In this document: positions 23,448 through 58,172 of the stretch, in pieces
How the letters are laid out: every line of letters begins with the position of its first letter
How positions within the stretch are numbered: the first letter of the stretch is position 1
Source: Janthinobacterium lividum
GTDB lineage: Bacteria; Pseudomonadota; Gammaproteobacteria; Burkholderiales; Burkholderiaceae_D
Direction of reading: 5' to 3'
NCBI RefSeq assembly: GCF_023509035.1
Contig: NZ_CP075583.1
Span: 3,782,001 to 3,846,000, forward strand
Length of the DNA: 64,000 nucleotides
The notes under the pieces: generated by a model
What the model was told of the DNA's origin: nothing
Databases searched by the model: none
What the model saw: the letters and a program-made list of their open reading frames with translations, nothing else
Made by a program: the position numbers and the translations under genes

Positions 23448-24969
23448 TCAGGGTGCTATATGCAGTCCCAGCATGGCCAGCTTGCCGAAATCGACGGGTT
23501 TGGCGAAGTGTTCGTTGAAGCCTGCCTGCAGGGCGGTCTGGCGGTCGTGTTCCTGGCCATAGCCGGTCAGCGCGACGAGCAGGAATTGCTGGGGTATCGG
23601 CAACTGGCGCAACTGGACGGCTACGTCGTAGCCGCTCATGTCGGGCAGGCCGATGTCGAGAAAGACGATGTCGGGCTTGAATTCCAGGGTGCGCTCGATG
23701 GCTTGCGCCCCCGTGTAGGCCGTGCGCACCGTGTGACCGTACATTTCCAGCAGTTCGGCCAGGGTGTCGGCCGCATCGCAGTTGTCGTCGACGACGAGGA
23801 TGCGCTGGCTGCCGCCGGGCGCTGCCTGCGGCGCTGGCGCGGCCGGCAGCGGCACGTTGGCGTCGAGCGGCAGGATGACTTCGAAGGTGCTGCCCAGCCC
23901 CACGCCGGGGCTGCGCACGCTGACCTGGCCGCCATGCAAGGTCACGAGCTTGCGCACCAGCGACAGGCCGATGCCCAGGCCATCCTGCACCCGGTCGGGC
24001 GAGTGGCCGCTTTGCTCGAACAGGCCGAAGATGCTGTCGATGCTGGCGGCGGCGATGCCGATGCCGTTGTCGCTCAGGCTTATGCGTACGTTGTCGCCTT
24101 CGCGCACGGCGGTAATCACGATGCGCCCGCCCGGCGCCGTGAACTTGGCCGCGTTGAGCAGCAGATTGGCGACGATCTGCGACAGGCGCACGGCGTCGCC
24201 GCAGACCCACAGTTCTTCCAGAGGCAAGTGCACGTCCAGTGCATGGCCGCGCGCTTCGACGCTATGCGAGCTCGTTTCCAGCGCACTGCGGATGACGCTG
24301 GCCAGGCTAACGCTTTCCCATTGCAGCGAGATTTTGCCCTGCGAAATGCGCGACACGTCGAGCAGGTCGTCCACCAGCCGCACGAGATGATCGGTATGGC
24401 GCCCTATGGTGCGGCGCGCATTGTCCTGCACTGCTGGCACGACAGGGTCGAGCTTGCACAGCAGGGCCAGCGCCGTGCGGATGGGGCCCAGCGGGTTGCG
24501 CAATTCGTGCGCGAGAGTAGCCAGGAATTCATCCTTGCGGCGGTCCACGTCGCGCAGCGCGCGCTCGACCCGGCCCAGGCGCAGCAGCGCCTTGACGTTG
24601 GCGATCAGTTCATCCGCCTCGATCGGCTCGACCAGGTAATTGTCGGCGCCGCCGTCCAGGGCGCGGATCTTGTCGGCCGTGCCGATGCAGGAGGCCGACG
24701 TCTGCAGCACCAGGATGGTGTTCGTTTCGGCGCCGCCCTTCAACTGGCGGCACACTTCCAGGCCGTTGATGTCGGGCAGCTTGACGTCGAGGAGGATCAG
24801 GTTGGGGGTGGTCCTGGCGGGCGCGCAGCAGCGCGTCGCCCCCGTTCGAGGCTTCGATGACCTTGAATCCGGCACGTTTGAGGATGTGCGACTTGGCGTA
24901 GCGAGCGCCATCGCTATCATCGACGTTCAGGATCAGAGCATCGCTGTTGTTATCCGGTAGCATGCGCAT
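23448..24969 (-). CDS. REC-histidine kinase-REC hybrid protein, frameshifted in the first receiver
   Basis: Reading order is an N-terminal receiver (NVDDSDGARYAKSHILKRAG, LILLDVKLPDINGLEV), HisKA with HELRNPLGPIRTAL, HATPase (DNGIGI, GLGIGLSLVRKL) and a C-terminal receiver (RILVVDDNCDAADTLAELL, VFLDIGLPDMSG). The receiver start (ATG 24969 or 24963) is in a different frame from the rest. Removing one base from the G5 run at 24804-24808 (C5 on the coding strand) restores RARQDHPNLILLDVKLPD, so this is probably a sequencing indel. It overlaps the upstream kinase gene by about 20 bases and ends the stressosome operon, a likely phosphorelay partner. Confidence 0.88.
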
Positions 24970-26779
24970 TGTCCCATGTGGTTGTGCCTTGCGGCGGAAC
25001 CGGCTCTTGCCGGTGGTGTGGATTGCCGATCAGCGCGCGCAGGGTCGCCAGCAATTGCTGGCGCGACAGCGGCTTGACGTAGTAGGCGTCGGCGCCCAGG
25101 GCCAGGCCCTTGCGCACGTCGTCGATCTCGGTGGCGACGATGACGGGCACCTGGCGCCGCAGCGGGTCGTTTTTCAGCTCGGCCAGCCAATGCCAGGCCG
25201 TTTCGCCATGCAGCATGATGTCGAGAATGACGGCGGCGGGACGCTGTTGTTCCCAGTGTTCCTGTGCCTCACGCACGCTGCGCGCCGGGACCACGCGAAA
25301 TTCGCTGCCGGCCAAAAATTTTTCATACAGCAGGCGGATGGGCGGGTTGTCTTCCACCACCAGCACGGGTATGCGCTGGTCGTTGCCATTGTCGTTGGCC
25401 GGCGCACACGGCGGCAGGCTGCCCTCGGGCGCATGATAGCTGGCTGGCAGCACCACGGAAAACAGCGATCCGTGGCCCGGCGTGCTTTCCACGGACACCG
25501 TGCCATTGAGCAGGGTGGCCAGGTTGCGGCACAGGGGCAGGCCCAGGCCTGTGCCCTTGACCTTGCGCTGCAGGTGGTTTTCCACCTGGCTGAATTCCTC
25601 GAAGATCAGCTGCACGTCTTCGGCGGCGATGCCCAGGCCCGTGTCGGAGACGGAAAAACGGATGGCGTCCTGCTCCGGCAAGGGCGTGGCGCTGACGATG
25701 ATGGCGCCCGCTTCCGTGAATTTGAGGGCGTTGGCGATGAAGTTGCGCAGGATTTGCGACAGCTTGCCTTCATCCGTGTGGATGTGCAGCGCCGGATCGG
25801 GATCGATGAAAGTGAGCGTGAGCGAATCGGACACCAGCAGCGGGCGCAGCATGCCGCGCAGGGCGCTGAACAGGTCGGTCACCTGGAAGCTGTTGGCGTG
25901 CACGTCGACCTTGCCCGCCTCGATCTTGGCCAGGTCCAGCAAGTCGTTCACCAGGTCGCTCAGGCCGACGGCGCTTTGCAGGATGAACAGCACCTGCTTT
26001 TCCTGTTCCTCGGACAGCTCGCCGTCGATGCGGTCGAGCAGCAGCTTGGACAGGGCGCGGATGGAGCTGAGCGGTGTGCGGAATTCATGGCTCATGTTCG
26101 ACAAGAAGCGCGATTTCATCTGGTCGGCGCGGCGCAGGTGGTCGGCTTTTTCATCCAGTTCCGCGAACAGCGCCACCACGCCCCGGTTGGTGTCTTCCAG
26201 TTCGCGCGTCAGCTGCAGCAGGTCGTCCTGGCGCGTTTTCAGTTCGGCCAGGGTGCTCAGCAGCTCGCGATTCTGCTGCTGCACTTCCGAGAGTGTGATA
26301 TCCGGAGGCAGCGCCTGCAGGCTGCCGGACAGCACGCCGATCGTGCCTCCGTCGAGCAGGGGTGCGTCGCGAGGGAACAGTTTGTGCAGCGTGATGTGCG
26401 TGCCGTCGCCTGGCGTGCTGTGGATGTGGCAGCGGTCCATCAGGCGCTGGGCGCCGAGGATGCCCAGTCCCATGCCCGTACGCGAGCGGTAGGTGCCGTC
26501 CAGGATGTGCTGCAACTGCTGCGGCGCGATGCCAGGGCCCTGGTCCTCGATGCGGATGCTGAGCACCTGCGGCGCCGTCTGGCCATCGATGGCAAAATGC
26601 ACCTTGCCGCTGCCGGCATAGTTATAGACGTTGCGCGCCAGTTCCGACACGGCCGTGGCGATGCGCACCTGATCCTGCACGCCGAAGCCGCACAGGGCGG
26701 CGATTTGCCGCGCGCGCTGGCGTGCCCCCACCACATCGAGTTCGCTGCCGATATGGGCTGTCAATATGCGTTGTGTCAT
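24950..26779 (-). CDS. RsbT-like HATPase fused to a hybrid histidine kinase (HATPase-HisKA-HATPase-REC)
   Basis: 609 residues with two GHKL ATPase domains. Residues 1-140 are an RsbT/RsbW-like domain: SELARNVYNYAGSGK N-box, DQGPGI and GMGLGILGAQRL. A coiled-coil-like linker follows (about 165-230), then HisKA (NMSHEFRTPLSSIRALS), a second HATPase (ILRNFIANALKFTE, DTGLGI, GTGLGLPLCRNL) and a C-terminal receiver (VLVVEDNPPIRLLYE, VILDIMLHG, VKPLS). The RsbT-like head suggests direct docking on the stressosome, making it the kinase that passes the signal into phosphotransfer (inference). Its ATG overlaps the previous stop (ATGA at 26776-26779). Confidence 0.9.
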   Translation of the reverse strand: MTQRILTAHIGSELDVVGARQRARQIAALCGFGVQDQVRIATAVSELARNVYNYAGSGKVHFAIDGQTAPQVLSIRIEDQGPGIAPQQLQHILDGTYRSRTGMGLGILGAQRLMDRCHIHSTPGDGTHITLHKLFPRDAPLLDGGTIGVLSGSLQALPPDITLSEVQQQNRELLSTLAELKTRQDDLLQLTRELEDTNRGVVALFAELDEKADHLRRADQMKSRFLSNMSHEFRTPLSSIRALSKLLLDRIDGELSEEQEKQVLFILQSAVGLSDLVNDLLDLAKIEAGKVDVHANSFQVTDLFSALRGMLRPLLVSDSLTLTFIDPDPALHIHTDEGKLSQILRNFIANALKFTEAGAIIVSATPLPEQDAIRFSVSDTGLGIAAEDVQLIFEEFSQVENHLQRKVKGTGLGLPLCRNLATLLNGTVSVESTPGHGSLFSVVLPASYHAPEGSLPPCAPANDNGNDQRIPVLVVEDNPPIRLLYEKFLAGSEFRVVPARSVREAQEHWEQQRPAAVILDIMLHGETAWHWLAELKNDPLRRQVPVIVATEIDDVRKGLALGADAYYVKPLSRQQLLATLRALIGNPHHRQEPVPPQGTTTWDNAHATG

Positions 26780-27882
26780 GCCGCACCTGTTCCTTCTGCT
26801 GTTTTTGCTGTTGTAGCCTGGTGTTCCTCATGTTCGCGCAGCACCACTACCGTGACGTCGTCGCGTCCGCGCGCAAAATCGCGGTACAGCACGGCGGCGA
26901 CGAGGCTGGGGTGGCAGTGCGCCAGGCCCGGGTACTGCTCCAGGTCCCAGCGCGTGTGCAGGCCGTCCGAGTGCATGATCAACGTCGTGCCCGGCAGCCA
27001 TGGATAGCAAAATTCCTGCACCTTGCGCAGATTGCTGCCGACGATGCCGTTATGCGACAGCAAATGCCGGCGCTGCTGCGCATCGAAGGCGCAGGCGGCG
27101 ATGTTGCCCACGCCGGCATAGCGCAATTCGCGGCGCGCGCTGTCGATATGCGCCACGGCCATGGCCGCGCCGCGCGTGGCGCGCAGGGCGCCGTGGGCCA
27201 GCTCGATGAAGGGGGCGGGCAGCGGCGGCAAGCCGGGCGTATCGTCTTCCAGCAGCGCGCTGGCGCGTTCCGACGCGCGTGCCGCCAGGGGGCCGTGGCC
27301 CAGGCCATCGGCCACCATCAGACTCAGTTCATGGCCTTCGCAGACCACGTTCCAGGCGTCGCCGCACACCTGTTCCGAGGCCAGCGGCAGGCATACTGCA
27401 CCGATCCGCCAGTTCGGATGGGCGGGAATGGCGCTGCTGGCGTGCTGCCCCCAAACCACCATCATCAGTACCGTGCCCTTGCCGGGCGCCGTGTACAGGT
27501 CGAATTCCTGGCTCAAGCGACGTATCGCGCCCAGTCCCACGCCGTAGGTGCCTGTGGTGGAATGGCCATCCTGCATGTGCTGGCGCACATTGGCCATGCC
27601 GGGGCCGTTGTCGATGGCCAGCACTTCGATGCCGCTGGTGCCGCCGCGCAGCACCTTGCGCAGTAGGATTTCACCGCGCTGTGCGTGCTTGACGATGTTG
27701 GTGGCCGCCTCGCTGATGATGATGGCCAGCTGGCCCGTGCGCACGTCGTCGAAACCGATGCGGCGCGCCAGTTCGTTGCCGGCGCGGCGGGCCGCGGCGA
27801 TCTCGCTCGGTTCGCCGATGGGAAAACTGCGTTGCCTGGCAATGTCAGGGGACGGCTCTTGGTGGTTCAAAACAACTTCCAT
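26776..27882 (-). CDS. RsbT-like HATPase fused to RsbX-type PP2C phosphatase
   Basis: 368 residues. The N-terminal 140 residues form a GHKL ATPase like RsbT/RsbW (SEAATNIVKHAQRGEI, DNGPGM, GVGLGAIRRL). The C-terminal half is a SpoIIE/RsbX-type PP2C phosphatase with metal-binding GDAW, ADGLGHG, SDG and RDDVTVV. RsbX dephosphorylates RsbR and RsbS to reset the stressosome in Bacillus; the same role is inferred here. It overlaps rsbT by 16 bases and the following kinase by 4, indicating tight co-translation. Confidence 0.92.
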   Translation of the reverse strand: MEVVLNHQEPSPDIARQRSFPIGEPSEIAAARRAGNELARRIGFDDVRTGQLAIIISEAATNIVKHAQRGEILLRKVLRGGTSGIEVLAIDNGPGMANVRQHMQDGHSTTGTYGVGLGAIRRLSQEFDLYTAPGKGTVLMMVVWGQHASSAIPAHPNWRIGAVCLPLASEQVCGDAWNVVCEGHELSLMVADGLGHGPLAARASERASALLEDDTPGLPPLPAPFIELAHGALRATRGAAMAVAHIDSARRELRYAGVGNIAACAFDAQQRRHLLSHNGIVGSNLRKVQEFCYPWLPGTTLIMHSDGLHTRWDLEQYPGLAHCHPSLVAAVLYRDFARGRDDVTVVVLREHEEHQATTAKTAEGTGAA

Positions 27883-28289
27883 TTCGCGATAGTGACGGTG
27901 GTGCCCACGCCGGGCGCCGTGTCGATGTGAAAGGCGTCTGCCAGGCGCTTGGCGCCACCCAGCCCCAGTCCCAGCCCGCCGCCGCTGGTATAGCCATCGG
28001 TCAGCGCCAGGGCGATATCTTCGATGCCCGGCCCCGCGTCGACAAAACGCAGTTCCAGTCCCTGGCGCGCGCCATCGCAGACGTGCGCAATGCTTGCTTC
28101 GCCGCCGCCGCCGTAGCGCAGGGTGTTGCGCGCCAGTTCGCTCGCCGCCGTGATGATCTTGGTCTGTTCGATCAGGCCAAAACCCATGGCGACCATGCTG
28201 TCGCGCACCTGTTTGCGCAAACGCACGACGTCTTGATCGCTGTGCAAGGGCAGGATCTGCGCGCGTTCCTGTGCCTGCGCGCCTAGCAC
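27867..28289 (-). CDS. rsbT: RsbT-type serine/threonine kinase (switch kinase of the stressosome)
   Basis: A 140-residue GHKL kinase with N-box ASELARNTLRYGGGG, G1 DAGPGI and G2 LGLGLGGAKRLAD, the length and motif order of RsbT. In characterised stressosomes RsbT phosphorylates RsbR and RsbS and is released on stress to act on a downstream target. There is no sigma-B system in this window, so the target is more likely one of the linked kinases. The start overlaps no neighbour; rsbS ends 10 bp upstream. Confidence 0.93.
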   Translation of the reverse strand: MLGAQAQERAQILPLHSDQDVVRLRKQVRDSMVAMGFGLIEQTKIITAASELARNTLRYGGGGEASIAHVCDGARQGLELRFVDAGPGIEDIALALTDGYTSGGGLGLGLGGAKRLADAFHIDTAPGVGTTVTIAKWKLF

Positions 28290-28299
28290 GGCGCTCCCG

Positions 28300-28662
28300 T
28301 CATGCGCATGCGCCGCCCCGTTCCAGCAGTTTGATGCCCAGTTCCACGTTGAGCGCCGTGCTCACGCCTTCCAAGGTCAGGCCCAGTTCCACCAGGGTGA
28401 TGGCGACGGCCGGCTGCATGCCCACGACCACGGTGTGTGCGTCGAGGATTTTCGCCATCGCCGCCGTGTTGCTGATCATGCGGCCGATGAAGGAATCGAC
28501 GATGTCGAGCGCGGAAATGTCGATCAGCACACCCGTGGCGCGGTCGGTCACGATGCGCGTGGTCAGATCGTCCTGCAAGGTCATCGCCAGGCGGTCATGC
28601 ATGTCCACCTGTATGGTCACGAGCAGCAGCCGGCCCATGCGTAAAATCGGGATTCTTTCCAT
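28300..28662 (-). CDS. rsbS: RsbS-type STAS-domain scaffold protein
   Basis: A 120-residue single STAS domain. VLIDISALDIVDSFIGRM carries the conserved Ser (residue 57) equivalent to the RsbT-phosphorylated Ser59 of Bacillus RsbS. VVVGMQPAVAITLVELG also matches the family. It forms the stressosome core together with RsbR. It sits 7 bp after rsbR and 10 bp before rsbT. Confidence 0.94.
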   Translation of the reverse strand: MERIPILRMGRLLLVTIQVDMHDRLAMTLQDDLTTRIVTDRATGVLIDISALDIVDSFIGRMISNTAAMAKILDAHTVVVGMQPAVAITLVELGLTLEGVSTALNVELGIKLLERGGACA

Positions 28663-28669
28663 AGGCGCC

Positions 28670-29563
28670 TCAGTGTGGTTGCTGCTGGTAGGTGATGCTG
28701 GAACCCGTGCGTTTCAGGGCTACGACGAAGGCGTCTGCCAGGGTGGCCTTGGTCATGACGTCTTCCAGGTTCACGCCCAGGTGCACGATGGTTTGCGCGA
28801 TCTGCGGGCGGATGCCGCTGATGATGCAGTCGGCGCCCATCAGGCGCGCGGCGGCGATGGTTTTCAGCAGGTGCTGCGCCACCAAGGTGTCGACTGTAGG
28901 CACGCCCGTGATGTCGATGATGGCGATCAAGGCGCCTGTGTCGACGATCTTTTGCAACAGGCTTTCCATCACCACTTGCGTGCGGGCACTGTCGAGGGTG
29001 CCGATCAGGGGCAGGGCCAGCACGTTTTGCCACAGTTGCACCACGGGCGTGGACAGTTCCAGCAATTCCTGCTGCTGGCGCAAAATCACCTGTTCGCGCG
29101 CCTTCTGGTAAATGGCAATGGTCAGCAAACCCAGCTCGTCGAACAATTTGCTGGTGCTGACGATGGCGTCGCCCAGTTCCTGCGGCTGCGCCGTGATTTC
29201 CTTGCGCAGATAGGCGAACAGCGGCTCCTTGAGGGCGAACATGAAACTGGCCGTGTCGATCGGCGAATAGCCCTGGCGCACGCGCGATTGCGATATTTCC
29301 GCGATCAGCTGGCGCGTATCGTCCCAGGCGCCGCCTTCGATGTCGAAAGAGTCGCCGCTTTCCAGCGCGCTGGCCAGCAGCGGCAAAAATTGCGATGCCT
29401 GCTGGCGCAGCTCGTTTTCCGCGATCTTGTCGCGCCGCACCAGGCGGGCGATCAGGCCGGCCATCCAGCCGTCCAGCAGTTCCGTGTGGTGCTCGTTGAT
29501 GATGCTGGCCAGTTGTTGCGCCTGGCCCAGGCCCGTCTTGATCGTGTCCGTCTTCATTCTCAT
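28670..29563 (-). CDS. rsbR: RsbR-type stressosome sensor/scaffold
   Basis: About 297 residues. The N-terminal 160 residues are an all-helical RsbRD-like sensor domain (LLDGWMAGLIARLVRRDKI, SPIDTASFMFALKEPLFAYL). The C-terminal STAS domain has IAIIDITGVPTVDTLVAQHL and ISGIRPQIAQTIVHLG, holding the Thr positions phosphorylated by RsbT in relatives. ATG 29563 is preferred because AAGG lies 6 bases upstream; 29557 and 29569 are nearby alternatives. It is the first gene of the operon and divergent from the nitric-oxide module. The sensed signal is unknown. Confidence 0.93.
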   Translation of the reverse strand: MRMKTDTIKTGLGQAQQLASIINEHHTELLDGWMAGLIARLVRRDKIAENELRQQASQFLPLLASALESGDSFDIEGGAWDDTRQLIAEISQSRVRQGYSPIDTASFMFALKEPLFAYLRKEITAQPQELGDAIVSTSKLFDELGLLTIAIYQKAREQVILRQQQELLELSTPVVQLWQNVLALPLIGTLDSARTQVVMESLLQKIVDTGALIAIIDITGVPTVDTLVAQHLLKTIAAARLMGADCIISGIRPQIAQTIVHLGVNLEDVMTKATLADAFVVALKRTGSSITYQQQPH

Positions 29564-29788: not shown

Positions 29789-30202
29789 ATGAATATTGAT
29801 AAATTCAAACAACAGCACCTGGCCATCCTGTCCGCCATCGACGATTTGCGCCAGCTGGCGCGCGGCGGTGTCGCCGCGCAGGCGCAGGCCATTGCCGAAC
29901 AAATCATCGCCATGAGCGGCTTGATCAAGCTGCATCTGGCCGTCGAGCAGCGCTACCTGTATCCGGCCGCGCAAGCGTCCGGCGTGGCCGAGGTGGCCCA
30001 GTTGGGTCGCCAGTACGAAAACGAGATGCAGGGCATCGCCGGCGCCTACCTGGATTTTGCGGGCCGCTGGAATACGCCCGTGCGCCTGGAAGCCGAACCG
30101 GAAGCCTTCCGCAGCGAAGCCAATATCGTGCTGCACGCGCTGTTCCAGCGCATGCGGCGCGAAGACCATGAGTTATATCCAGCCGTTGAAACGCTGGCCT
30201 GA
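29789..30202 (+). CDS. Hemerythrin-domain protein
   Basis: A 137-residue four-helix protein with hemerythrin-type iron ligands: HLAILSAIDDL on helix 1, LIKLHLAVEQRYLYP on helix 2, and HALFQRMRREDHELYP on the last helix (His, His/Glu, His/Glu). It lacks the N-terminal ScdA domain of full-length YtfE. Its place directly ahead of hmp under an NsrR-type operator suggests a role in nitric-oxide sensing, storage or repair of iron centres (inference). AAGAG lies upstream of ATG 29789. Confidence 0.88.
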   Translation: MNIDKFKQQHLAILSAIDDLRQLARGGVAAQAQAIAEQIIAMSGLIKLHLAVEQRYLYPAAQASGVAEVAQLGRQYENEMQGIAGAYLDFAGRWNTPVRLEAEPEAFRSEANIVLHALFQRMRREDHELYPAVETLA

Positions 30203-30233
30203 TACCGCTTACTAATCTACACAGGAGTTTTAC

Positions 30234-31415
30234 ATGCTGACCCAAGAACAACGCGCCATCATCACTGCCACCGTCCCCATCCTCGAGCAGGGCGGCGAAG
30301 CGCTGACGCGCCACTTCTACAAGAATCTGTTCCGCGACCATCCCGAAGTGCTGCCGTACTTTAACCAGGCGCACCAGCACAGCGGCGACCAGCAGCGCGC
30401 GCTGGCCAATGGCGTGCTGATGTATGCTAAGAACATCGACAAGCTTGCCGCGCTGGGCGACCTGGTGGCCACCATCGTCAACAAGCACGTGGCCCTGCAG
30501 ATCCGCGCCGAGCACTATCCGCTGGTGGGCGCCAGCCTGCTGCAAGCGATCCGCGAAGTGCTGGGCGCCGAGGTGGCCAGCGACGCCGTCATCGATGCCT
30601 GGGGCGCGGCTTACGGCCAGCTGGCCGACATCCTGGCCGGCGAAGAAGGGCGCATCTACAAGGCGCAGGCCGCCGCGCCTGGCGGCTGGACCGGCGCGCG
30701 CGATTTTTTAGTGCGTAGCAAGACGGTGGAAAGCGCGGAGATTACCTCCTTCCTGATGGCGCCCACCGATGGCCAGCCCGTGCTCGACTTTGCGCCAGGC
30801 CAGTATATTGGCGTGCTGGCCAGCGTCGATGGCGTGCCCATGCGCCGCCAGTATTCCCTGTCCGCCGCCAGCAATGGCCAGACTTACCGCATCAGCGTCA
30901 AGCGCGAAGAGGGCGGCAAGGTATCCAATTTCTTCCACGACCATGTGCAGGCGGGCGACACCGTGCAACTGACGCCGCCCTCGGGCGATTTCGTGCTGCG
31001 CGACAGCGACAAGCCGCTGGTGCTGATCAGCGGCGGCGTGGGCATCACGCCCACCCTGGCGATGCTGACGGCGGCCCTGCGCGGCAAGCGTCCCGTGCAT
31101 TTCATCCACGCGGCGCGCAACCACGGCGTGCATGCGTTTCGCGCGCAGATCGACGCACTGGCGGCGCAGCACCCGCAGCTGCAGCGTTATTACTGCTACG
31201 CGGAACATGGCGGCGAACAAGATGCGCCGGACGCCGTCGGCTTGCTCAATAAAGAGCAGCTCGGTCACTGGCTGCCGGCCTCGCGCGATGTCGATGCCTA
31301 CTTCCTGGGGCCACAGCCGTTCATGCGCGCCGTCAAGCAATACTTGCGCGAACTGGGCGTGCCGGAACAGCAGACGCACCATGAGTTCTTCGGACCGGCA
31401 GCCGCCTTGAACTGA
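30234..31415 (+). CDS. hmp: Flavohemoglobin, nitric oxide dioxygenase
   Basis: 393 residues, the normal Hmp length. A globin domain (LTQEQRAIITATVPILEQGG, HYPLVGASLLQAIREVLG with the proximal His) is followed by a ferredoxin-reductase-like FAD domain (RQYSLSAAS) and an NAD domain (ISGGVGITPTLAML, FLGPQPFMRAVKQYL). It converts NO and O2 to nitrate using NAD(P)H. ACAGGAG precedes ATG 30234. It lies 31 bp after the hemerythrin gene and shares its NsrR-type promoter. Confidence 0.96.
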   Translation: MLTQEQRAIITATVPILEQGGEALTRHFYKNLFRDHPEVLPYFNQAHQHSGDQQRALANGVLMYAKNIDKLAALGDLVATIVNKHVALQIRAEHYPLVGASLLQAIREVLGAEVASDAVIDAWGAAYGQLADILAGEEGRIYKAQAAAPGGWTGARDFLVRSKTVESAEITSFLMAPTDGQPVLDFAPGQYIGVLASVDGVPMRRQYSLSAASNGQTYRISVKREEGGKVSNFFHDHVQAGDTVQLTPPSGDFVLRDSDKPLVLISGGVGITPTLAMLTAALRGKRPVHFIHAARNHGVHAFRAQIDALAAQHPQLQRYYCYAEHGGEQDAPDAVGLLNKEQLGHWLPASRDVDAYFLGPQPFMRAVKQYLRELGVPEQQTHHEFFGPAAALN

Positions 31416-31549
31416 TCTTGCCGCAAGCCTGCCTGGTGTTGCTCCTGCGAGAAAAAATCGCTGCCGTAAGGGGCGGGTAAGTCTCGCGCCGTATTGTGAA
31501 TGCAAGCTCGCACAAAAGAGCACGCTTTTACATAACAGGAGGCAATATC

Positions 31550-31858
31550 ATGCATGACGATCTGGTTCAAAAAATCAAGGGCGACCCCAACTATCATCAG
31601 TTGGTCAAGGTGCGCTCGCGCTTCGGCTGGGCACTGACGGGCCTGATGATGCTGGTGTACTACGGCTACATCCTGCTCATCGCCTTCAACAAGGAATTTC
31701 TTGCCACTAAAACGGGCGCCGGTGTCATGACGTGGGGTATGCCGATCGGCCTGTTCGTCATCGTCTTTACCGTGGTGATCACCGGCATTTATGTGCGCCG
31801 CGCCAACAAGCAATTCGACGACCTGACCAGCGCCATCCAGGCACGGGTGCAAGCATGA
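31550..31858 (+). CDS. DUF485 small inner-membrane protein (YjcH-like)
   Basis: 102 residues with two membrane segments ([39 protein letters not shown]). This is the small protein that almost always precedes actP; its function is unclear, perhaps assembly or modulation of the transporter. A strong AGGAGG lies before ATG 31550. The stop overlaps the actP start as ATGA at 31855-31858. Confidence 0.93.
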
Positions 31859-33540
31859 ACCGCAGCCCATCGACGCAACGCAAATTTTCCTGCCTGGCAG
31901 CCCTGACCTTGCTGGCGAGCGCCAGCAACAGCGTGCTGGCGGCCGGCGCTGATCTGGGCCAGGCAGTCAAGCAGCCCACCAACTGGACGGCGATCACCAT
32001 GTTCGCCGCCTTCGTCATCTTCACCCTGTTCGTCACCAAATGGGCGGCCGCGAAGACCAAGTCGGCCTCCGATTTCTACACGGCCGGCGGCGGCATCACG
32101 GGCTTCCAGAATGGCCTGGCCATTGCGGGCGACTATATGTCGGCCGCCTCCTTCCTCGGCATTTCCGCCGCCGTCTTCCTGAATGGCTACGATGGCCTGA
32201 TCTATGCCATCGGCTTTCTCGTTGGCTGGCCCGTCATCACCTTCCTGATGGCCGAGCGCCTGCGCAACCTGGGCCGCTATACTTTTGCCGATGTGGCCGC
32301 CTATCGCTTCAAGCAGGCGCCGATCCGCATTTTCTCGGCTTCCGGCACCCTCGTCGTGGTGGCGTTCTACCTGATTGCGCAGATGGTGGGCGCGGGCCAG
32401 CTGATCAAGCTGCTGTTCGGCCTCGAGTACTGGATCGCCGTCGTCCTGGTCGGTACACTGATGATGATCTACGTGCTGTTTGGCGGCATGACGGCCACCA
32501 CCTGGGTGCAGATCATCAAGGCCGTGATGTTGCTGGGCGGCGCCACCTTCATGGCCGTGGCCGTGCTGGCACAATTCAATTTCAGCCCGGAAGCGCTGTT
32601 CGCCAAGTCGGTAGACGTGCACGCCGCCAAGGAAGCCATCATGGCCCCCGGTTCCTTCATCAAGGACCCGATCTCGGCCATCTCGTTTGGCATGGCGCTG
32701 ATGTTCGGTACGGCTGGCTTGCCGCACATTCTGATGCGTTTCTTCACGGTGCCGAGCGCCAAGGAAGCGCGTAAATCCGTGTTCTGGGCCACCACCTGGA
32801 TCGCCTACTTCTACATCCTGACCTTCATCATCGGCTTTGGCGCCATCGTGCTGGTGAGCACCAATCCCGAGTTCAAGGATGCTGCAGGCAAGTTGCTGGG
32901 CGGTAATAACATGGCGGCCGTGCATCTGGCCAAGGCCGTGGGCGGTAATGTCTTCCTCGGTTTCATGTCGGCTGTCGCGTTTGCCACCATCCTGGCCGTC
33001 GTGGCGGGTTTGACCCTGTCGGGCGCGTCGGCCGTGTCGCACGATCTGTATGCTACCGTCATCAAGAAGGGCAAGGCCACGGGCGCCAACGAATTGAAAG
33101 TGTCGCGCGTGACGACGATCGTGCTGGGCATTATTGCCGTGGTGCTGGGTATCGCCTTTGAAAAGCAGAACATCGCATTCATGGTCTCGCTGGCCTTCGC
33201 CATCGCCGCTTCGGCCAACTTCCCCGTGCTGTTCATGTCGGTGCTGTGGAAGGATTGCACCACGCGGGGCGCCACCATCGGCGGCTTCCTGGGCTTGACC
33301 ACGGCTGTCGCGCTGACGGTAGTGTCGAAGTCCGTGTGGGTCGACGTGCTCGGTCATCCGGAGGCGCTGTTCCCGTATGCTTCGCCGGCGCTGTTCTCGA
33401 TGACGGCCGGGTTCGTTGGTATCTGGCTGTTCTCGGTGCTCGACAAGAGCCCCCGCGCGCGCATCGACCGCGCCGGCTACGAAGCGCAGCAAATGCGTTC
33501 GGAGACGGGCATCGGCGCCTCTGGTGCCAGCGCGCATTGA
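31855..33540 (+). CDS. actP: Cation/acetate symporter
   Basis: 561 residues of the sodium:solute symporter family. An N-terminal signal-like segment ([18 protein letters not shown]) is followed by about 13 membrane helices, including the conserved [33 protein letters not shown] region. It imports acetate and related short-chain acids, driven by a cation. Coupled to the DUF485 gene by a 4-base overlap. A strong terminator follows. Confidence 0.95.
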
Positions 33541-45843: not shown

Positions 45844-46196
45844 GCGGGCCATTGTCGCATCGCCGCCGCAATAACTATCATTTTTGATAACTTTATTGCT
45901 GAAGTCCTATGAATATGTTCGCAAAGCAACTATACTCATGGCTCTTTAAAAAATCATCGTCACGCTGGCGGCCAGACATCCGCGCCAGAGTTCGTACGCA
46001 TTCCGCTTTTTCTCTCTGAACAAGCACTTTTCCCCCGCGCGGCAGGCGCGGGCGTGATGACCGAGCCTTGCCCTGGTCGATTGCTGCCGTTGTCATTTTC
46101 GCTGTGTTGCCGCTTTAGTAAAAGGCGTGGCGCCGGCGCGCGGTGCGCCGTCATGTTTTGCGACGTCACGTTTCACTCACCTTATGCCACGACAGT
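45844..46196. other. Intergenic region before the MHYT hybrid kinase
   Basis: No gene seen. It contains an interrupted hairpin GCAATAA...TATCA-TTTT-TGATA...TTATTGC (45868-45899) that may terminate the upstream gene although no T-run follows, a -10-like TATACT (45931-45936) without a clear -35, and a GC-rich hairpin CCCGCGC-GGCAG-GCGCGGG (46034-46052) that would lie in the leader RNA. Confidence 0.45.
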
Positions 46197-49100
46197 ATGT
46201 TTAGTTCCATGTTTGATGTATCGGACAACACGCTTGCCTATATCTATGGCACGCACAATGTCTGGCTGGTGCTGTTTTCCATCGGCATCGCCATTTTCGC
46301 CTCGTTCATGGCCCTGCAGATCGCCGGCATGGCGCGTAGCAGCGAGCGCGGCTTCCAGCGCCAGACGGCCATCATCACGGGCGCCATCGCGCTCGGCGGC
46401 GGCATCTGGTCGATGCACTTCATCGGCATGCTGGCCTTCGATATCTGCACGCGAGTTTCCTTCGACCCCGGCCTGACCCTGCTGTCCATGCTGCCCGGCG
46501 TGGCCGCTTCGTGGGTGGCGCTGCACTTGCTGGCGCGTCCGCGCATCAACTGGCGGCAACTGGTGGTGGGTGGCGTGCTGGTGGGCGTGGGCATCGGTTC
46601 CATGCATTACAGCGGCATGGCCGCCATGCTAACTTCGCTGACCCTGCATTACCAGCCGTGGCTGTTCGCGCTGTCGCTGGTGGTGGCCGTCACCATGGCC
46701 ATGCTGGCGCTGTGGATACGCTTCGGCCTGAACGCCATGCGCCAGCGCTTGAGCCCCCTGGCATCCTTGCTGGTCAGCAGCGTCGTCATGGGCCTGGCCA
46801 TTTCCGGCATGCATTACACGGGCATGCTGGCGGCGCGCTTTTCCGGTACGCCCACGGCAGGCGAGAATACGATTACGGTTCAGGCCTCGTTCGTGGCCCT
46901 GGCCGTGGCCCTGATCACCGTCACCCTGACCGTCTTCGTGGCCGCCGCGAACGGCTTGCTGCGTTACCGCCAGCTGCTGGGCCACGCCAGCGTCAGCGAA
47001 TCGCGCCTGCGCGCCATCGTCGACACGGCGGCCGATGGTCTGATCACCATCGATGGTCAGGGCAAGGTACGTTCCTTCAATCCCGCCGCGGAAAGCCTGT
47101 TTGGCTGGCGCGAAGCTGACATCGTGGGGCGCGACGCCAGCGTGCTGCTGCAGCCGGCCGACGCGGTCGAATACGAGGGCTATCTGCGCGATTACCTGGA
47201 GACGGGCGCCTCGCGCATCCTCGACAGCGGACGCGAACTCGATGGCTGCCACAAGGATGGCGCCGTGCTGCCCATGCGCGTGGCGATCGGCAAGATCGAC
47301 ACGCCGGGCCAGCCCCTGTTCGTGGCTTTTGTCACGGACATGCGTTCGTCGCGCAGCATGGAGCAGGCGCTGAAGGACAGCGAGCGTCAGTACCGCACCC
47401 TGATCCGCAATATCCCCGGCGTGTCCTTCCACTGCAGCTACGCGCCCGCATGGCAGATGATTTTCATCAGCGATGCCGTTTTCAACCTGACGGGCTGGAT
47501 GCCGCAGGATTTCATCGAAGGGCGGGTCAGGCTGTTCGACCTCGTGCATCCGGACGACCGCCAGCGCGTCAACGACACCTGCGTGCAGGCGGCTGGCGAG
47601 AAGCGCGATTTCGAGAACGTCTACCGCATGATTCACCGCGACGGGCGCGAACGCTGGGTGCGCGAAAGCAGCGGCCCCGTGCTCGATAACGATGGCGTGG
47701 TGCGCTGGGTCGATGGTGTCATCCTCGACATCACGGAAAGCGAATTGCGCAACGCCGAATACGAAGGCAAGGTGACGGCCATCTCGCGCGCGATGGCCGT
47801 CATCGAGTTCGACCTGCAGGGACGCATCCTGGCGGCCAACGAGAACTTCCTCAACCTGGTCGGCTACCGGCTCGACGACGTGCTGGGCCTGCACCACAGC
47901 ATCTTCTGCGAACCGGGTTACGTGACTTCGCCGGACTATATGGCGTTCTGGCAGCACCTGGCGCAGGGTGAATTCAATACCGGCGAGTACAAGCGCATCG
48001 ACAAATATGGCCAGGAAGTGTGGATACAGGCCTCGTACAACCCGATCTTCAACACGGACGGCAAGCCGTTCAAGGTGGTCAAGCTGGCCACCGACGTCAG
48101 CGAACGGCGCGCCATGCAGGAAAACCTGCGCGCGGCTAAAGACCGCGCCGAGCTGGCCGCCGAATCGAAGACCAGCTTCCTGGCCAATATGAGCCATGAA
48201 ATCCGCACGCCGATGAACGCCATCATCGGTTTTACGGAAGTGCTGCTGGGGACCGCCCTGGACAGCCTGCAGCGCCGCCACCTGGGCACGGTGCGCCAGT
48301 CCGCCCGTTCTCTGCTCGAGCTGCTTAACGACATCCTCGACATGGCCAAGCTGGAAAAAGGCGCCACCGAACTGGAACTGGTGGACTTTTCGCTGCCTGA
48401 CTTGGTCGACCACGTGGCCGCGTCGCTGCGCATCACGGCGCATGCGCGCGACCTGGTGCTGCATGTGGATGTCGATCCCGGCATGGGCCAGTTCTTCCTG
48501 GGCGACGCGCGCCGGGTACAGCAGGTACTGACGAATCTGATCGGCAACGCCGTCAAGTTCACGGAAGTGGGCCATGTGCGCGTGGCCGTCGGCACGCAGG
48601 GCGAGCAGGTGCATATCGCCGTGCACGACACGGGCATCGGCATCCCCGCCGACCGCCTGGATAAAATCTTTGCTCCCTTTACGCAAGCCGATTCCTCGAT
48701 GAGCCGCCGCTTTGGCGGCACGGGCCTGGGCACGACGATTTCACTGCAATTGGTCGAACTGATGGGGGGCACCATCACGGTGGAAAGCACCCTGGGCGTG
48801 GGCAGCGTGTTCCACGTGCTGCTGCCGCTGGCGCCGGGCAAGGCCGTGGCGCGCCGCAGCGAGCAGCCCGTGGTGGCCTTGCCTCCGCTGCGCATCCTGG
48901 CGGCCGACGACGTGCCGCAGAATGTGGAGTTGCTCCTGATCAGCCTGGGCGCGGCCGGCCACCAGGTGATCGCCGCCAGCGATGGCGAGAGCGCCGTGCG
49001 TGAGTTCAGCAAGGGCAGCTTCGATATCGTCCTGATGGACGTGCAGATGCCGCGCATGGATGGCCTGGAAGCGACGCGCCTGATCCGCGTGCACGAGCGC

Positions 49101-49907
49101 GAACAGGGCCTGAAGGCGACGCCCATCATCGCCCTGACGGCCAGCGTGCTGGAACAGGACCGGCGCGCCGCGCAGACGGCCGGCATGAACGGCTTTGCTT
49201 CGAAGCCGCTGGAGATGCACAAGCTGACGGCGGAAATCGCCCGCCTGCTCGATATCGCCGTGGTCATGCCGCCGCCGGCGGCCGGCGCGGCGGCGCGTGC
49301 CGCCGCTGGCCAGGTGGACTGGCAGCGCGGCGTCGCCCTGTGGGGCGGCCGCGAGGCCTTGCAGCGCGCCATTGCGCGCTTCGTGCAGGCCAATGGCGAC
49401 TGCGCCGCCATGCTGGCGGCGGAACTGGAACGCGGCGGCAGCAGCGTGGCGGGCCATTTGCTGCACCGTATCAAGGGCGCGGCGGGCAATCTGTGCCTGG
49501 TGCAGGTCGAAAGCCTGCTGGGGCGCATCGAGCAAGCCATCGCGCGCCAGCTGCCGGTGACCGAATTACTGGTGCAACTGGCGGCCGCCTTCATGGCCCT
49601 GGCCGGCGAGCTGGAGGCGGGCGCCGAGGCGCCTTTGGTGCCGGCGGCCGAGGCACTCGCCAGCGCGTCGCTCGATGCCTCCGCCTTTGGTGCCTTGCTG
49701 CGGCAAGCCATCGCCAGCCTGGAAGGCGGGCAGCTGGACGACGCCTTGATGGCGCAGATCGCCGCCATGCTGGCGCCGCACGGCCAACAGCAGCGACTGC
49801 AGGCGCTGGCCAGTGCCATCGACGACTTTGAATTTGCGCGCGCCGCGGGCGTGCTGCGCCAGTTGCTGGCGTGGCTGGATGCGCCGGCGCCCGCCGACCT
49901 TTCCTGA
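46197..49907 (+). CDS. MHYT-PAS hybrid histidine kinase with receiver and HPt domains
   Basis: About 1236 residues. The N-terminal 270 residues are a seven-helix MHYT sensor with repeats SMHFIGMLAF, SMHYSGMAAM and GMHYTGMLAARF, proposed to bind copper and sense O2, CO or NO. Three PAS domains follow (IVDTAADGLITIDGQG; LIRNIPGVSFHC; AMAVIEFDLQGRILAANENF). Then HisKA NMSHEIRTPMNAIIGF, HATPase (DTGIGI, GTGLGTTISLQL), a receiver (IVLMDVQMPRMDGLEA) and a C-terminal HPt (HLLHRIKGAAGN). All steps of a phosphorelay are in one chain. ATG 46197 or 46209 starts it. The HD-GYP gene starts 13 bp after its stop. Confidence 0.92.
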   Translation: MFSSMFDVSDNTLAYIYGTHNVWLVLFSIGIAIFASFMALQIAGMARSSERGFQRQTAIITGAIALGGGIWSMHFIGMLAFDICTRVSFDPGLTLLSMLPGVAASWVALHLLARPRINWRQLVVGGVLVGVGIGSMHYSGMAAMLTSLTLHYQPWLFALSLVVAVTMAMLALWIRFGLNAMRQRLSPLASLLVSSVVMGLAISGMHYTGMLAARFSGTPTAGENTITVQASFVALAVALITVTLTVFVAAANGLLRYRQLLGHASVSESRLRAIVDTAADGLITIDGQGKVRSFNPAAESLFGWREADIVGRDASVLLQPADAVEYEGYLRDYLETGASRILDSGRELDGCHKDGAVLPMRVAIGKIDTPGQPLFVAFVTDMRSSRSMEQALKDSERQYRTLIRNIPGVSFHCSYAPAWQMIFISDAVFNLTGWMPQDFIEGRVRLFDLVHPDDRQRVNDTCVQAAGEKRDFENVYRMIHRDGRERWVRESSGPVLDNDGVVRWVDGVILDITESELRNAEYEGKVTAISRAMAVIEFDLQGRILAANENFLNLVGYRLDDVLGLHHSIFCEPGYVTSPDYMAFWQHLAQGEFNTGEYKRIDKYGQEVWIQASYNPIFNTDGKPFKVVKLATDVSERRAMQENLRAAKDRAELAAESKTSFLANMSHEIRTPMNAIIGFTEVLLGTALDSLQRRHLGTVRQSARSLLELLNDILDMAKLEKGATELELVDFSLPDLVDHVAASLRITAHARDLVLHVDVDPGMGQFFLGDARRVQQVLTNLIGNAVKFTEVGHVRVAVGTQGEQVHIAVHDTGIGIPADRLDKIFAPFTQADSSMSRRFGGTGLGTTISLQLVELMGGTITVESTLGVGSVFHVLLPLAPGKAVARRSEQPVVALPPLRILAADDVPQNVELLLISLGAAGHQVIAASDGESAVREFSKGSFDIVLMDVQMPRMDGLEATRLIRVHEREQGLKATPIIALTASVLEQDRRAAQTAGMNGFASKPLEMHKLTAEIARLLDIAVVMPPPAAGAAARAAAGQVDWQRGVALWGGREALQRAIARFVQANGDCAAMLAAELERGGSSVAGHLLHRIKGAAGNLCLVQVESLLGRIEQAIARQLPVTELLVQLAAAFMALAGELEAGAEAPLVPAAEALASASLDASAFGALLRQAIASLEGGQLDDALMAQIAAMLAPHGQQQRLQALASAIDDFEFARAAGVLRQLLAWLDAPAPADLS

Positions 49908-56139: not shown

Positions 56140-56826
56140 GTGCGCTGCCTGGTCATCGAAGACGAAGCTGAAACTTCCCGCTATATCTGTGCCGGCCTGC
56201 GTGAGGCGGGCCACGACGTCACCGCCTGCGACAATGGCATCGACGGCATGCGCCTGGCCTGCGGCGAAGACTGGGATGCGCTGGTGCTCGACCGCCTGTT
56301 GCCCGGCGAGATCGATGGCCTGGCCATCGTCGCGCGCCTGCGCGGCATGGGCAGCAACACGCCCGTGCTGGTGCTGTCGGCCCTGTCCAGCGTCGACGAG
56401 CGCGTGCGCGGCCTGCGCAGCGGCGGCGACGATTATCTGTCGAAACCGTTCGCCATCGCCGAACTGCTGGCGCGCATCGAGGCGCTGCTGCGGCGCGCCG
56501 CGCCCGTGCCCGAAGCGACGCAGCTGCAGGTGGCCGACCTGGTGCTCGACATGCGCACCATGCGCGTGACGCGCGCCAACCGGCAAATCGCCCTGCAGCC
56601 GCGCGAGTTCCGCCTGCTGGAATACCTGATGCGCCACCAGGGCCAGTCCGTCACGCGCGCCATGCTGCTCGAAGCCGTATGGGACTACCATTTCGACCCG
56701 CAGACGAACGTCATCGACGTGCAGGTGAGCCGTTTGCGCACCAAGGTGGACAAGGAGTTTTCGCCGCCGCTGATCCACACGGTGCGCGGCGTCGGCTACA
56801 CCCTGGGCGTGATCGATAGTGCGTAA
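56140..56826 (+). CDS. OmpR-family response regulator
   Basis: 228 residues from a GTG start. Receiver with acidic pocket (CLVIEDEAETSRYICAGL), phospho-Asp at residue 51 (LVLDRLLPGEIDG) and Lys in LSKPF; C-terminal winged helix (LQPREFRLLEYLMRHQGQSV, NVIDVQVSRLRTKVD). The order and sequence resemble the copper/envelope-stress type (IrlR/CusR-like), but the stimulus is unknown. Overlaps the kinase gene by 8 bases. Confidence 0.94.
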   Translation: MRCLVIEDEAETSRYICAGLREAGHDVTACDNGIDGMRLACGEDWDALVLDRLLPGEIDGLAIVARLRGMGSNTPVLVLSALSSVDERVRGLRSGGDDYLSKPFAIAELLARIEALLRRAAPVPEATQLQVADLVLDMRTMRVTRANRQIALQPREFRLLEYLMRHQGQSVTRAMLLEAVWDYHFDPQTNVIDVQVSRLRTKVDKEFSPPLIHTVRGVGYTLGVIDSA

Positions 56827-58172
56827 CTGGCACCGCTCGATCGCGGCCCGCCTGGCGCTCGGCTATGGCGTGCTGGTGGTCGTCTCGATCAGCATTGTCT
56901 GCGCCGTGTTCTATTTCGGCACCATCGGCGTGCTGGACCGCAGCGTGGACCGCAAGCTGACCTTGCTCTCGGAGCGCCTTGCCGCGCTGTACGAGCAAGG
57001 CGGCAGCAGCCGCACGACGGCGGAAATCGCCCATTTGCTCACAGACCGCACCGACAGCGACACGGAGATTTTTTTGCTGGTGGACGCCGATGGCAGCCGC
57101 GTGGCCGGCAATCTGTCTTCTTGGCCCGACCTTGGCAGCCCCGTGGACCGCTTGCTGCACCGCGACGTCACGCGCGAAGGACGCAGGGTGCCCGCGCGCA
57201 TGCTGATCCGCGACCTGGCGGGTGGTGCGCGCCTGTTCGTCGGACGCGACATGGAGGAGGGCAAGTCGATCCGCACTCTGGTGCTGCGCTCGCTGGCCTA
57301 TGGCGGCGGGGTGGCCATCCTGCTGGTAGTGGCGGGCGCGTGGCTGTTCCGGCGCCAGCTCGAAGCGCGTATCGGGCAGATCCGCCGCACGGCGGGGGAA
57401 ATCGAGGCGGGAGACCTGAGCCGGCGCATTCCCGTCTCCAGCGAAGATGAATTCGGCTTGCTGAGTCGCGATATCAACCGCATGCTCGACCGCATCGAGC
57501 ATTTGATGGAAGGCGTGCGCCACGTGTCGAACGCCATCGCGCACGACTTGCGCACGCCGCTGGGCCGCATCCGCAACAAGCTCGATGGCGCCTTGCGCCA
57601 GCAGCAGGGCGTGGCCGGCTACGAGAGCGCTGCGCAGGCAGCCATCGACGATATCGACGACCTGACGCGCGTGTTCGACAAGCTGCTGCAGATCGCGGCG
57701 GCCGAATCGGGCATGCGCCCGGAGAATTTCGACGACATCGACCTGCAGCAGATCGGCGCCGACATCGTGGAAATGTACGAAGCGACGGCCGACGAGCAGG
57801 GCGTGCTGCTGGTGCAGATGTATGGCGAGGGCGTGCCGGCGCGCGGCGACCGCAACCTGCTGGGCAGCGCCCTGGCCAGCCTGGTCGACAACGCCATCAA
57901 ATACGCGGGGCGGGGGCGCCACGGTGGAAGTGTTGGCCGGCAGCGATGAACAGGGCAACTGGCTGGCCGTACGCGACAACGGCCCTGGCGTGCCAGCGGA
58001 GGAACTGCCGAAGCTGACGCAGCGTTTTTACCGGCTCGACAAGAGCCGCCATTTGCCCGGCAATGGCCTGGGCCTGTCCATCGTGGCGGCCATCGCCGCT
58101 CTGCATGGCGGTAGCCTGGAGATCGAAGATGCGGCGCCGGGCTTGCGCCTGCGATTGCGGCTGCTGTGCTAG
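56819..58172 (+). CDS. Sensor histidine kinase with HAMP domain, frameshifted in the ATPase domain
   Basis: Two membrane segments (ARLALGYGVLVVVSISIVCA; YGGGVAILLVVAGAWLF) flank a periplasmic sensor of about 130 residues. A HAMP domain follows (about 180-235), then HisKA (SNAIAHDLRTPLGRIRNKL). The HATPase is split: the first frame reads LVDNAIKYAGRG and then drifts to a stop at 57949, while the next frame resumes GATVEVLAGSDEQGNW with DNGPGV and GNGLGLSIVAAI to 58172. Removing one G from the G5 run at 57912-57916 restores one protein of about 450 residues. It partners with the OmpR-type regulator just upstream. Confidence 0.9.

Follow-up and report, generated by a model that had tools for sequence, protein, structure and literature searches.

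The stressosome operon and its genes

A stretch of 64,000 nucleotides from the soil bacterium Janthinobacterium lividum (assembly GCF_023509035.1, contig NZ_CP075583.1, positions 3,782,001 to 3,846,000; hereafter the window) contains a stressosome operon in which rsbR, rsbS, and rsbT (together, RST) are followed by three genes here called TX, K1, and K2. The host genome is a single contig of 6.26 Mb. All six genes lie on the minus strand, from position 29563 of the window down to 23448, and the gaps between them, read from rsbR to K2, are 7, 10, -16, -4, and -20 bp. A preliminary description made from the window's sequence had recognized this tight operon; its gene order, domains, and spacing are borne out, but K2 is not one frame in this assembly, being shifted by one base relative to four relatives.

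The first gene, rsbR (28670 to 29563), specifies a protein of 297 residues in which Pfam finds an RsbRD_N sensor domain and a STAS domain, the latter matching the solved RsbR of Vibrio vulnificus (4e-36). The D-T of the VDT in its threonine region is invariant in 24/24 aligned RsbR proteins. In the structure model, the fold of the sensor is predicted to be globin-like, with 5ohf among the structure matches. However, RsbR has no match to the Pfam globin family, and the sensor parts of the 24 RsbR proteins share no invariant or near-invariant histidine; haem sensing is therefore unsupported, and haem is probably absent. RsbS (28300 to 28662; 120 residues) is a single STAS domain that matches solved RsbS chains (best E 7.6e-29), and it carries a VDSF motif, present in all 25 loci inspected, whose serine we take to be the phosphorylation site. 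The GTG-initiated rsbT (27867 to 28289; 140 residues) encodes a kinase of the SpoIIAB/RsbT type by Pfam (HATPase) and by profile comparison, and the residues of a serine kinase (Glu, Asn, the G1 Asp, and Gly) are complete in 78/78 RsbT proteins.

The three genes that follow carry the features of most interest. TX (26776 to 27882; 368 residues) joins an RsbT-like head (HATPase_c_2) to a SpoIIE domain that matches both a SpoIIE-type chain (3zt9) and Bacillus RsbX (3w40), so that it has the marks of an RsbX-type feedback phosphatase even though it is fused to a head. K1 (24950 to 26779; 609 residues) likewise begins with an RsbT-like head (HATPase_c_2), which is followed by a long helical linker and by HisKA, HATPase_c, and receiver (REC) domains; Pfam finds no RsbU_N on it at E 0.01. 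The part of the linker at 26099 to 26299 bears the signature TNRGVVALFAEL, which in relatives is mostly TNRGVVALYAEL. K2 lies in two pieces: its start and the first part of its first receiver are in the frame that opens at 24969 (24804 to 24969), while the rest of that receiver, HisKA, HATPase_c, and a second receiver occupy 23448 to 24809, a frame in which Pfam detects two REC stretches. Thus, both K1 and K2 contain the domains of a phosphorelay, in K2 across two frames. The fusion of RsbT to RsbX and the hybrid kinase with an RsbT-like head, both proposed in the preliminary description, are upheld by these domains, by the SpoIIAB type of the heads, and by the match to RsbX. Its claim that no sigma-B partner is present also holds: none of the 12 SigBFG matches in the genome reaches the family cut-off, which rules out an output of the SigB type.

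The operon is well kept within the genus. Of 37 same-genus genomes, this one included, 27 have K1 and the same 27 have RsbS, and the six-gene order is identical in 26/26 fetched relatives, one of which has K1 in two frames. The nearest named relatives of TX are from Janthinobacterium (89-96% in the best segment). Median ratios of nonsynonymous to synonymous substitution are 0.13 for rsbR, 0.08 for rsbS, 0.17 for rsbT, 0.18 for TX, and 0.17 for K1 (11 relatives each), 0.18 for the K1 head alone (11 relatives), and 0.18 for K2 among relatives (10 pairs). By these ratios, the five unbroken genes are under purifying selection.

Spread of the operon, its heads, and its linker

A comparison of gene order, which had been suggested for the Oxalobacteraceae, yields a far wider distribution. 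Genomes were scanned with TX and the best 80 of 102 loci were kept; TX is thus present by selection, and its neighbours are the result. RsbR is found in 77/80 and RsbS in 78/80 of these loci by their own profiles (loci L089 and L126 begin inside the operon, and L097 begins at RsbS), and RsbT is counted in 78/81, with L089 and L126 starting too late and L111 lost to a distance filter even though the profile listed its RsbT. The order RST-TX-kinase recurs in nine phyla, assigned by record title: Pseudomonadota, Cyanobacteria, Planctomycetes, Acidobacteriota, and Actinomycetota, as well as Gemmatimonadota, Verrucomicrobiota, Chloroflexi, and Bdellovibrionota, the last four as metagenome bins only. 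Together with the conserved order within the genus and the substitution ratios, this recurrence rules out a chance neighbourhood or a private oddity of one strain. In the slot 3' of TX (80 loci and the window), 65/81 proteins have a head and 16/81 are headless kinases. A gene with a receiver comes next in 67/80 loci (REC.HK.REC in 52, REC.HK in 7, and REC in 8, HK being histidine kinase); of the 13 loci without one, three (L081, L098, and L125) have a contig end less than 1 kb away. In L187 and L199, a second RsbT-like protein and a PP2C phosphatase are encoded separately, possibly an unfused form of TX. In the actinobacterial L111 and L127, the K2 slot holds a REC-SpoIIE protein; consequently, these loci may feed their output back into a partner switch.

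Several comparisons bear on the nature of the heads. The general-base Glu is kept in 78/78 RsbT proteins, 80/81 heads of TX, and 65/65 heads of the kinase slot, whereas the histidine kinase domains have Asn at this first position of the N-box in 78/78 cases. The K1 head is therefore not a second catalytic domain of a histidine kinase. SpoIIAB is the best match for the profiles of RsbT and of the TX heads. Over the head of K1, a SpoIIAB chain again scores best (1.5e-10), followed by histidine kinases (3e-9); the top chain of that search overall falls on the kinase part. A model of the K1 head and linker (predicted local distance difference test, pLDDT, 90.7; predicted template modelling score, pTM, 0.66) places a GHKL head before one helix, residues 158-243, that would run into HisKA, and its six best Foldseek matches are all SpoIIAB. 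On this evidence, the heads are of the SpoIIAB/RsbT type, a portable copy of RsbT. The same head is found on other outputs: a GGDEF protein in L092 (L093 is alike by sequence), HisKA_2 in L185, and GAF-HisKA in L128. The origin of the heads is not settled by a quick tree of head classes from 33/81 loci, in which 67/124 inner branches are open; the TX heads and the histidine kinase domains, the latter a long-branched outgroup, each fall on one side of a branch, and RsbT and the kinase heads need two changes each.

In eight of the 65 kinase heads (L078, L081, L085, L087, L090, L104, L111, and L127), the N-box Asn or the G1 Asp is missing. These ATP-dead heads span four taxonomic groups, counted by eye from record titles, and all eight retain an Arg in helix 1 and a Glu that align to Arg20 and Glu46 of SpoIIAB. 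In SpoIIAB, Glu46 has been described as the catalytic base, Asn50 as the residue that holds Mg, and Arg20 as close to the SpoIIAA site and in contact with sigma, too (PMC10345196); in RsbW, Arg23 and Glu49 bind RsbV (PMC7340262). Consensus residues are retained in the ATP-dead heads at 0.59-0.93 in the half formed by helices 1-2 and at 0.10-0.49 in the rest, the latter figure being lowered for L081 and L111 by short slices. Intact heads average 0.88 and 0.84 (n=43, with 14 near-copies from Janthinobacterium omitted). We read this pattern as suggesting selection for a protein-protein face without use of ATP.

The linker is as distinctive as the head. Its motif is present in 77/81 proteins of the K1 slot, 62 headed and 15 headless; the four others are L081, which is cut by a contig end, the cyclases L092 and L093, and L125, a kinase that looks unrelated. 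In this genome, the next-best place for the linker profile has an E of 0.44. Among 249 genomes of Pseudomonadota, the profile matched nine, once each, and in 9/9 the matched gene is K1 within an RST operon (headed in 6, headless in 3). A search of the same sample for full heads found six, all adjoining RST and none elsewhere (matches occurred in 17 other genomes, and all of these but G163 and G280 were retrieved, 15 in total). It should be noted that absences in these searches are incomplete, since at most 10 first-look candidates per genome were scored for the head and at most 24 for the linker. In 16 genomes behind diverse loci, the linker occurs at one place in 15, with two tandem matches in both actinobacterial genomes, and the Terriglobus genome with a cyclase has no match; because many of the loci fed the profile, what these genomes can tell is limited to the lack of additional copies. 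Judged from these matches, the signature TNRGVVALYAEL marks the output kinases of such RST operons, even the headless ones.

A proposed route from the STAS core to the output kinases

Taken together, these results have led to a model for a widespread class of stressosome in which RsbT would exist both free and as heads fused to a reset phosphatase and an output kinase. In this model, RsbR, with its globin-like sensor that probably lacks haem, and RsbS would form the STAS core, which free RsbT would phosphorylate under stress. TX would dock on the core by its own head and dephosphorylate it, thereby resetting the system. K1 would dock in the same way, and phosphorylation of the core would cause its head to leave; the freed head would then act along the long linker helix to make the histidine kinase more or less active, and the signal would pass from K1 to K2 and onward by way of an Hpt protein and a response regulator whose genes lie elsewhere. 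The starting points are gene content and order, conservation, co-inheritance, head type, residue retention, the restriction of the linker, and the predicted fold; head docking, the direction of switching, transfer from K1 to K2, and the Hpt step are what the model would add. As a whole, it is the best explanation at hand, and we give it an even chance of being correct. A broader version is put forward a little more tentatively, at somewhat short of even chances: RsbT paralogues fused to phosphatases, histidine kinases, and cyclases may compete with free RsbT for one STAS core, making the output enzymes themselves the partners in a partner switch, with some heads serving as pseudokinase docks and the linker helix marking output kinases across phyla.

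The preliminary description had the RST module wired straight into kinases. That RST is joined to histidine kinases without SigB is borne out by gene order, co-occurrence, and domains. The "straight" part is something that we, too, infer, and the ATP-dead heads, the exchange of heads among outputs, and the restricted linker strengthen it. Several observations count against the model and its direct coupling. Headless kinases weaken the latter, and because they fill 16/81 slots, a head in cis cannot be a general requirement; Pfam likewise finds no head on the kinase adjoining TX in L190, and in L188 RST and TX stand without a kinase in the vicinity. Nor can docking by itself account for the heads, because 57/65 keep the N-box Asn. 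Further along the pathway, no K2 was seen in 2/8 sampled operons outside the genus (L194 and L195), and none of the 20 Hpt matches in the genome lies inside the operon. The first receiver of K2 retains its acceptor Asp in 66/67 loci, but the usual Lys of the switch position is found in 0/67 (Glu in 36, His in 14, Gln in 9, Asp in 3, Ala in 2, Arg in 2, and one gap). By these residues it is an atypical receiver, and consequently a plain step from K1 to the K2 receiver is uncertain.

Some of the same observations suit a different route, in which the K1 linker is acted on in trans by free RsbT or by the TX head, just as the RsbU linker is by RsbT in Bacillus, and the K1 head is mainly a second serine kinase that feeds phosphate back to RsbS and RsbR. 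Such a route would account for headless kinases that keep the linker signature in 15/16 cases and still adjoin RST, and for the retained Asn in most heads. However, a feedback kinase does not explain why ATP-dead heads with STAS-contact residues occur in four taxonomic groups, and no RsbU_N was found on K1. We therefore regard this alternative as rather unlikely, but as the principal one. Both mechanisms may also operate together, with the head acting on the linker in cis where it is fused and RsbT acting in trans where it is not.

A second alternative concerns this strain alone: the pathway may be decaying, with K2 a pseudogene and the module left without an output. Alignment with four relatives locates a one-base difference in length, in 4/4 comparisons, to a short run of C near 24804-24809 within the first receiver of K2; other coding differences in these genes cancel, by our reading of the alignment, to multiples of three. 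About 54 residues at the start of K2 are thus read from the frame that opens at 24969, and all later ones from the frame that ends at 23448. Because K2 is not one frame here, the listed open reading frame at 23448-24920 opens with out-of-frame residues. K2 is unbroken in 26/26 other same-genus loci, so the shift is private to this genome among 27, as decay would have it. A mirror image exists in one relative (L051, genome G007), where K1 is in two frames and K2 is intact, and both K1 and RsbS are missing from 10/37 same-genus genomes, three of which are less than 90% complete. Yet base-calling errors are common in short C runs such as the one that holds the break, and purifying selection acts on the other five genes. 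The K2 step in this assembly is broken or misread; the break is either a base-calling error or a recent lesion, which are indistinguishable from the sequence at hand, and decay of the pathway is considered improbable. The least probable alternative, that the K1 head senses ATP/ADP or energy for its kinase without touching the STAS proteins, fits the intact ATP-site residues of most heads, but it is very doubtful given that 8/65 heads have lost such residues while keeping the putative docking face and that full heads in the 249-genome sample occur only beside RST.

Relation to known systems and the surrounding genes

In outline, this type of operon is already known, as the preliminary description had stated: RST modules beside two-component or phosphorelay genes of Gram-negative bacteria are in print (PMC9237108, PMC10014275). 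RSTX modules have been described beside HisKA/REC, GGDEF, or PP2C genes, most of the downstream proteins considered there are without RsbU_N, and no interaction of RsbT with the downstream kinase D1 was detected (PMC9237108); in V. vulnificus, loss of RSTX and loss of D1 gave similar phenotypes (PMC10014275). The RSTX-D1-D2 operon of that species resembles the present one in having RsbR, RsbS, RsbT, an RsbX-type phosphatase, and then two-component genes, with no SigB. However, the Vibrio RsbR carries a haem globin and its RsbX has a single domain (PMC9237108, PMC10014275), whereas here the sensor is RsbRD_N and both phosphatase and kinase have RsbT-like heads.

The Bacillus pathway (RsbRST-RsbU-RsbV-RsbW-SigB) shares the RsbR/RsbS/RsbT core and an RsbX-type phosphatase but differs in its SigB-type sigma, in its use of RsbU_N, and in lacking RsbT-like heads on effectors. 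RsbT acts on RsbU, and histidine kinases headed by RsbU_N have been mentioned (PMC12143880). Such kinases and cyclases beside RST are like K1 in their N-terminal domain for interaction with the stressosome (putative in K1), helical linker, and HK or GGDEF outputs; unlike it, they carry the receptor for RsbT (PMC12143880) rather than a copy of RsbT. With the anti-sigma kinases SpoIIAB and RsbW (1th8, 1til, and 6m36), the heads share their fold, the general-base Glu, and the helix-1 Arg; unlike those kinases, they are joined to a phosphatase or to a histidine kinase, and no sigma partner was found.

In the literature searched (titles, the starts of abstracts, and passages), RsbT-headed kinases are not described, and nothing links the stressosome with Janthinobacterium; fusions reported in the 2005 survey of RST modules (Pane-Farre et al.) or in a 2017 review would have escaped this search. 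With that proviso for the 2005 survey, what is new is the RsbT-headed class, its spread, its ATP-dead heads, and its linker signature. The preliminary description had overlooked the K2 frame shift, the distribution far beyond the Oxalobacteraceae, the other outputs of the heads, and the missing Lys in the first receiver of K2. How Gram-negative stressosomes reach two-component outputs is an unsettled question (PMC9237108), to which the RsbT-headed class offers a concrete candidate answer, a copy of RsbT on the enzyme itself. Its naturally occurring ATP-dead and headless variants allow docking and catalysis to be told apart, and the linker signature provides a handle for finding such kinases.

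The flanks of the operon are also conserved. In 25/26 same-genus loci, a metallophosphoesterase gene flanks it on one side and genes for flavohaemoglobin, a DUF485 protein, and ActP flank it on the other; a hemerythrin gene is retained in 24/26. Among the ten same-genus genomes without the module, the metallophosphoesterase was found in four, in two of which flavohaemoglobin lies about 1.1 kb from it with no module gene matched between. In the window, the genes for hemerythrin, flavohaemoglobin (Hmp), the DUF485 protein, and ActP (29789-33540) are divergent from rsbR; a connection of the operon to nitric oxide or oxygen stress is possible. Outside the operon, the window contains a further hybrid kinase and REC/HK genes at 46143-49907 and 56140-57949, and an Hpt match lies within the first of these regions.

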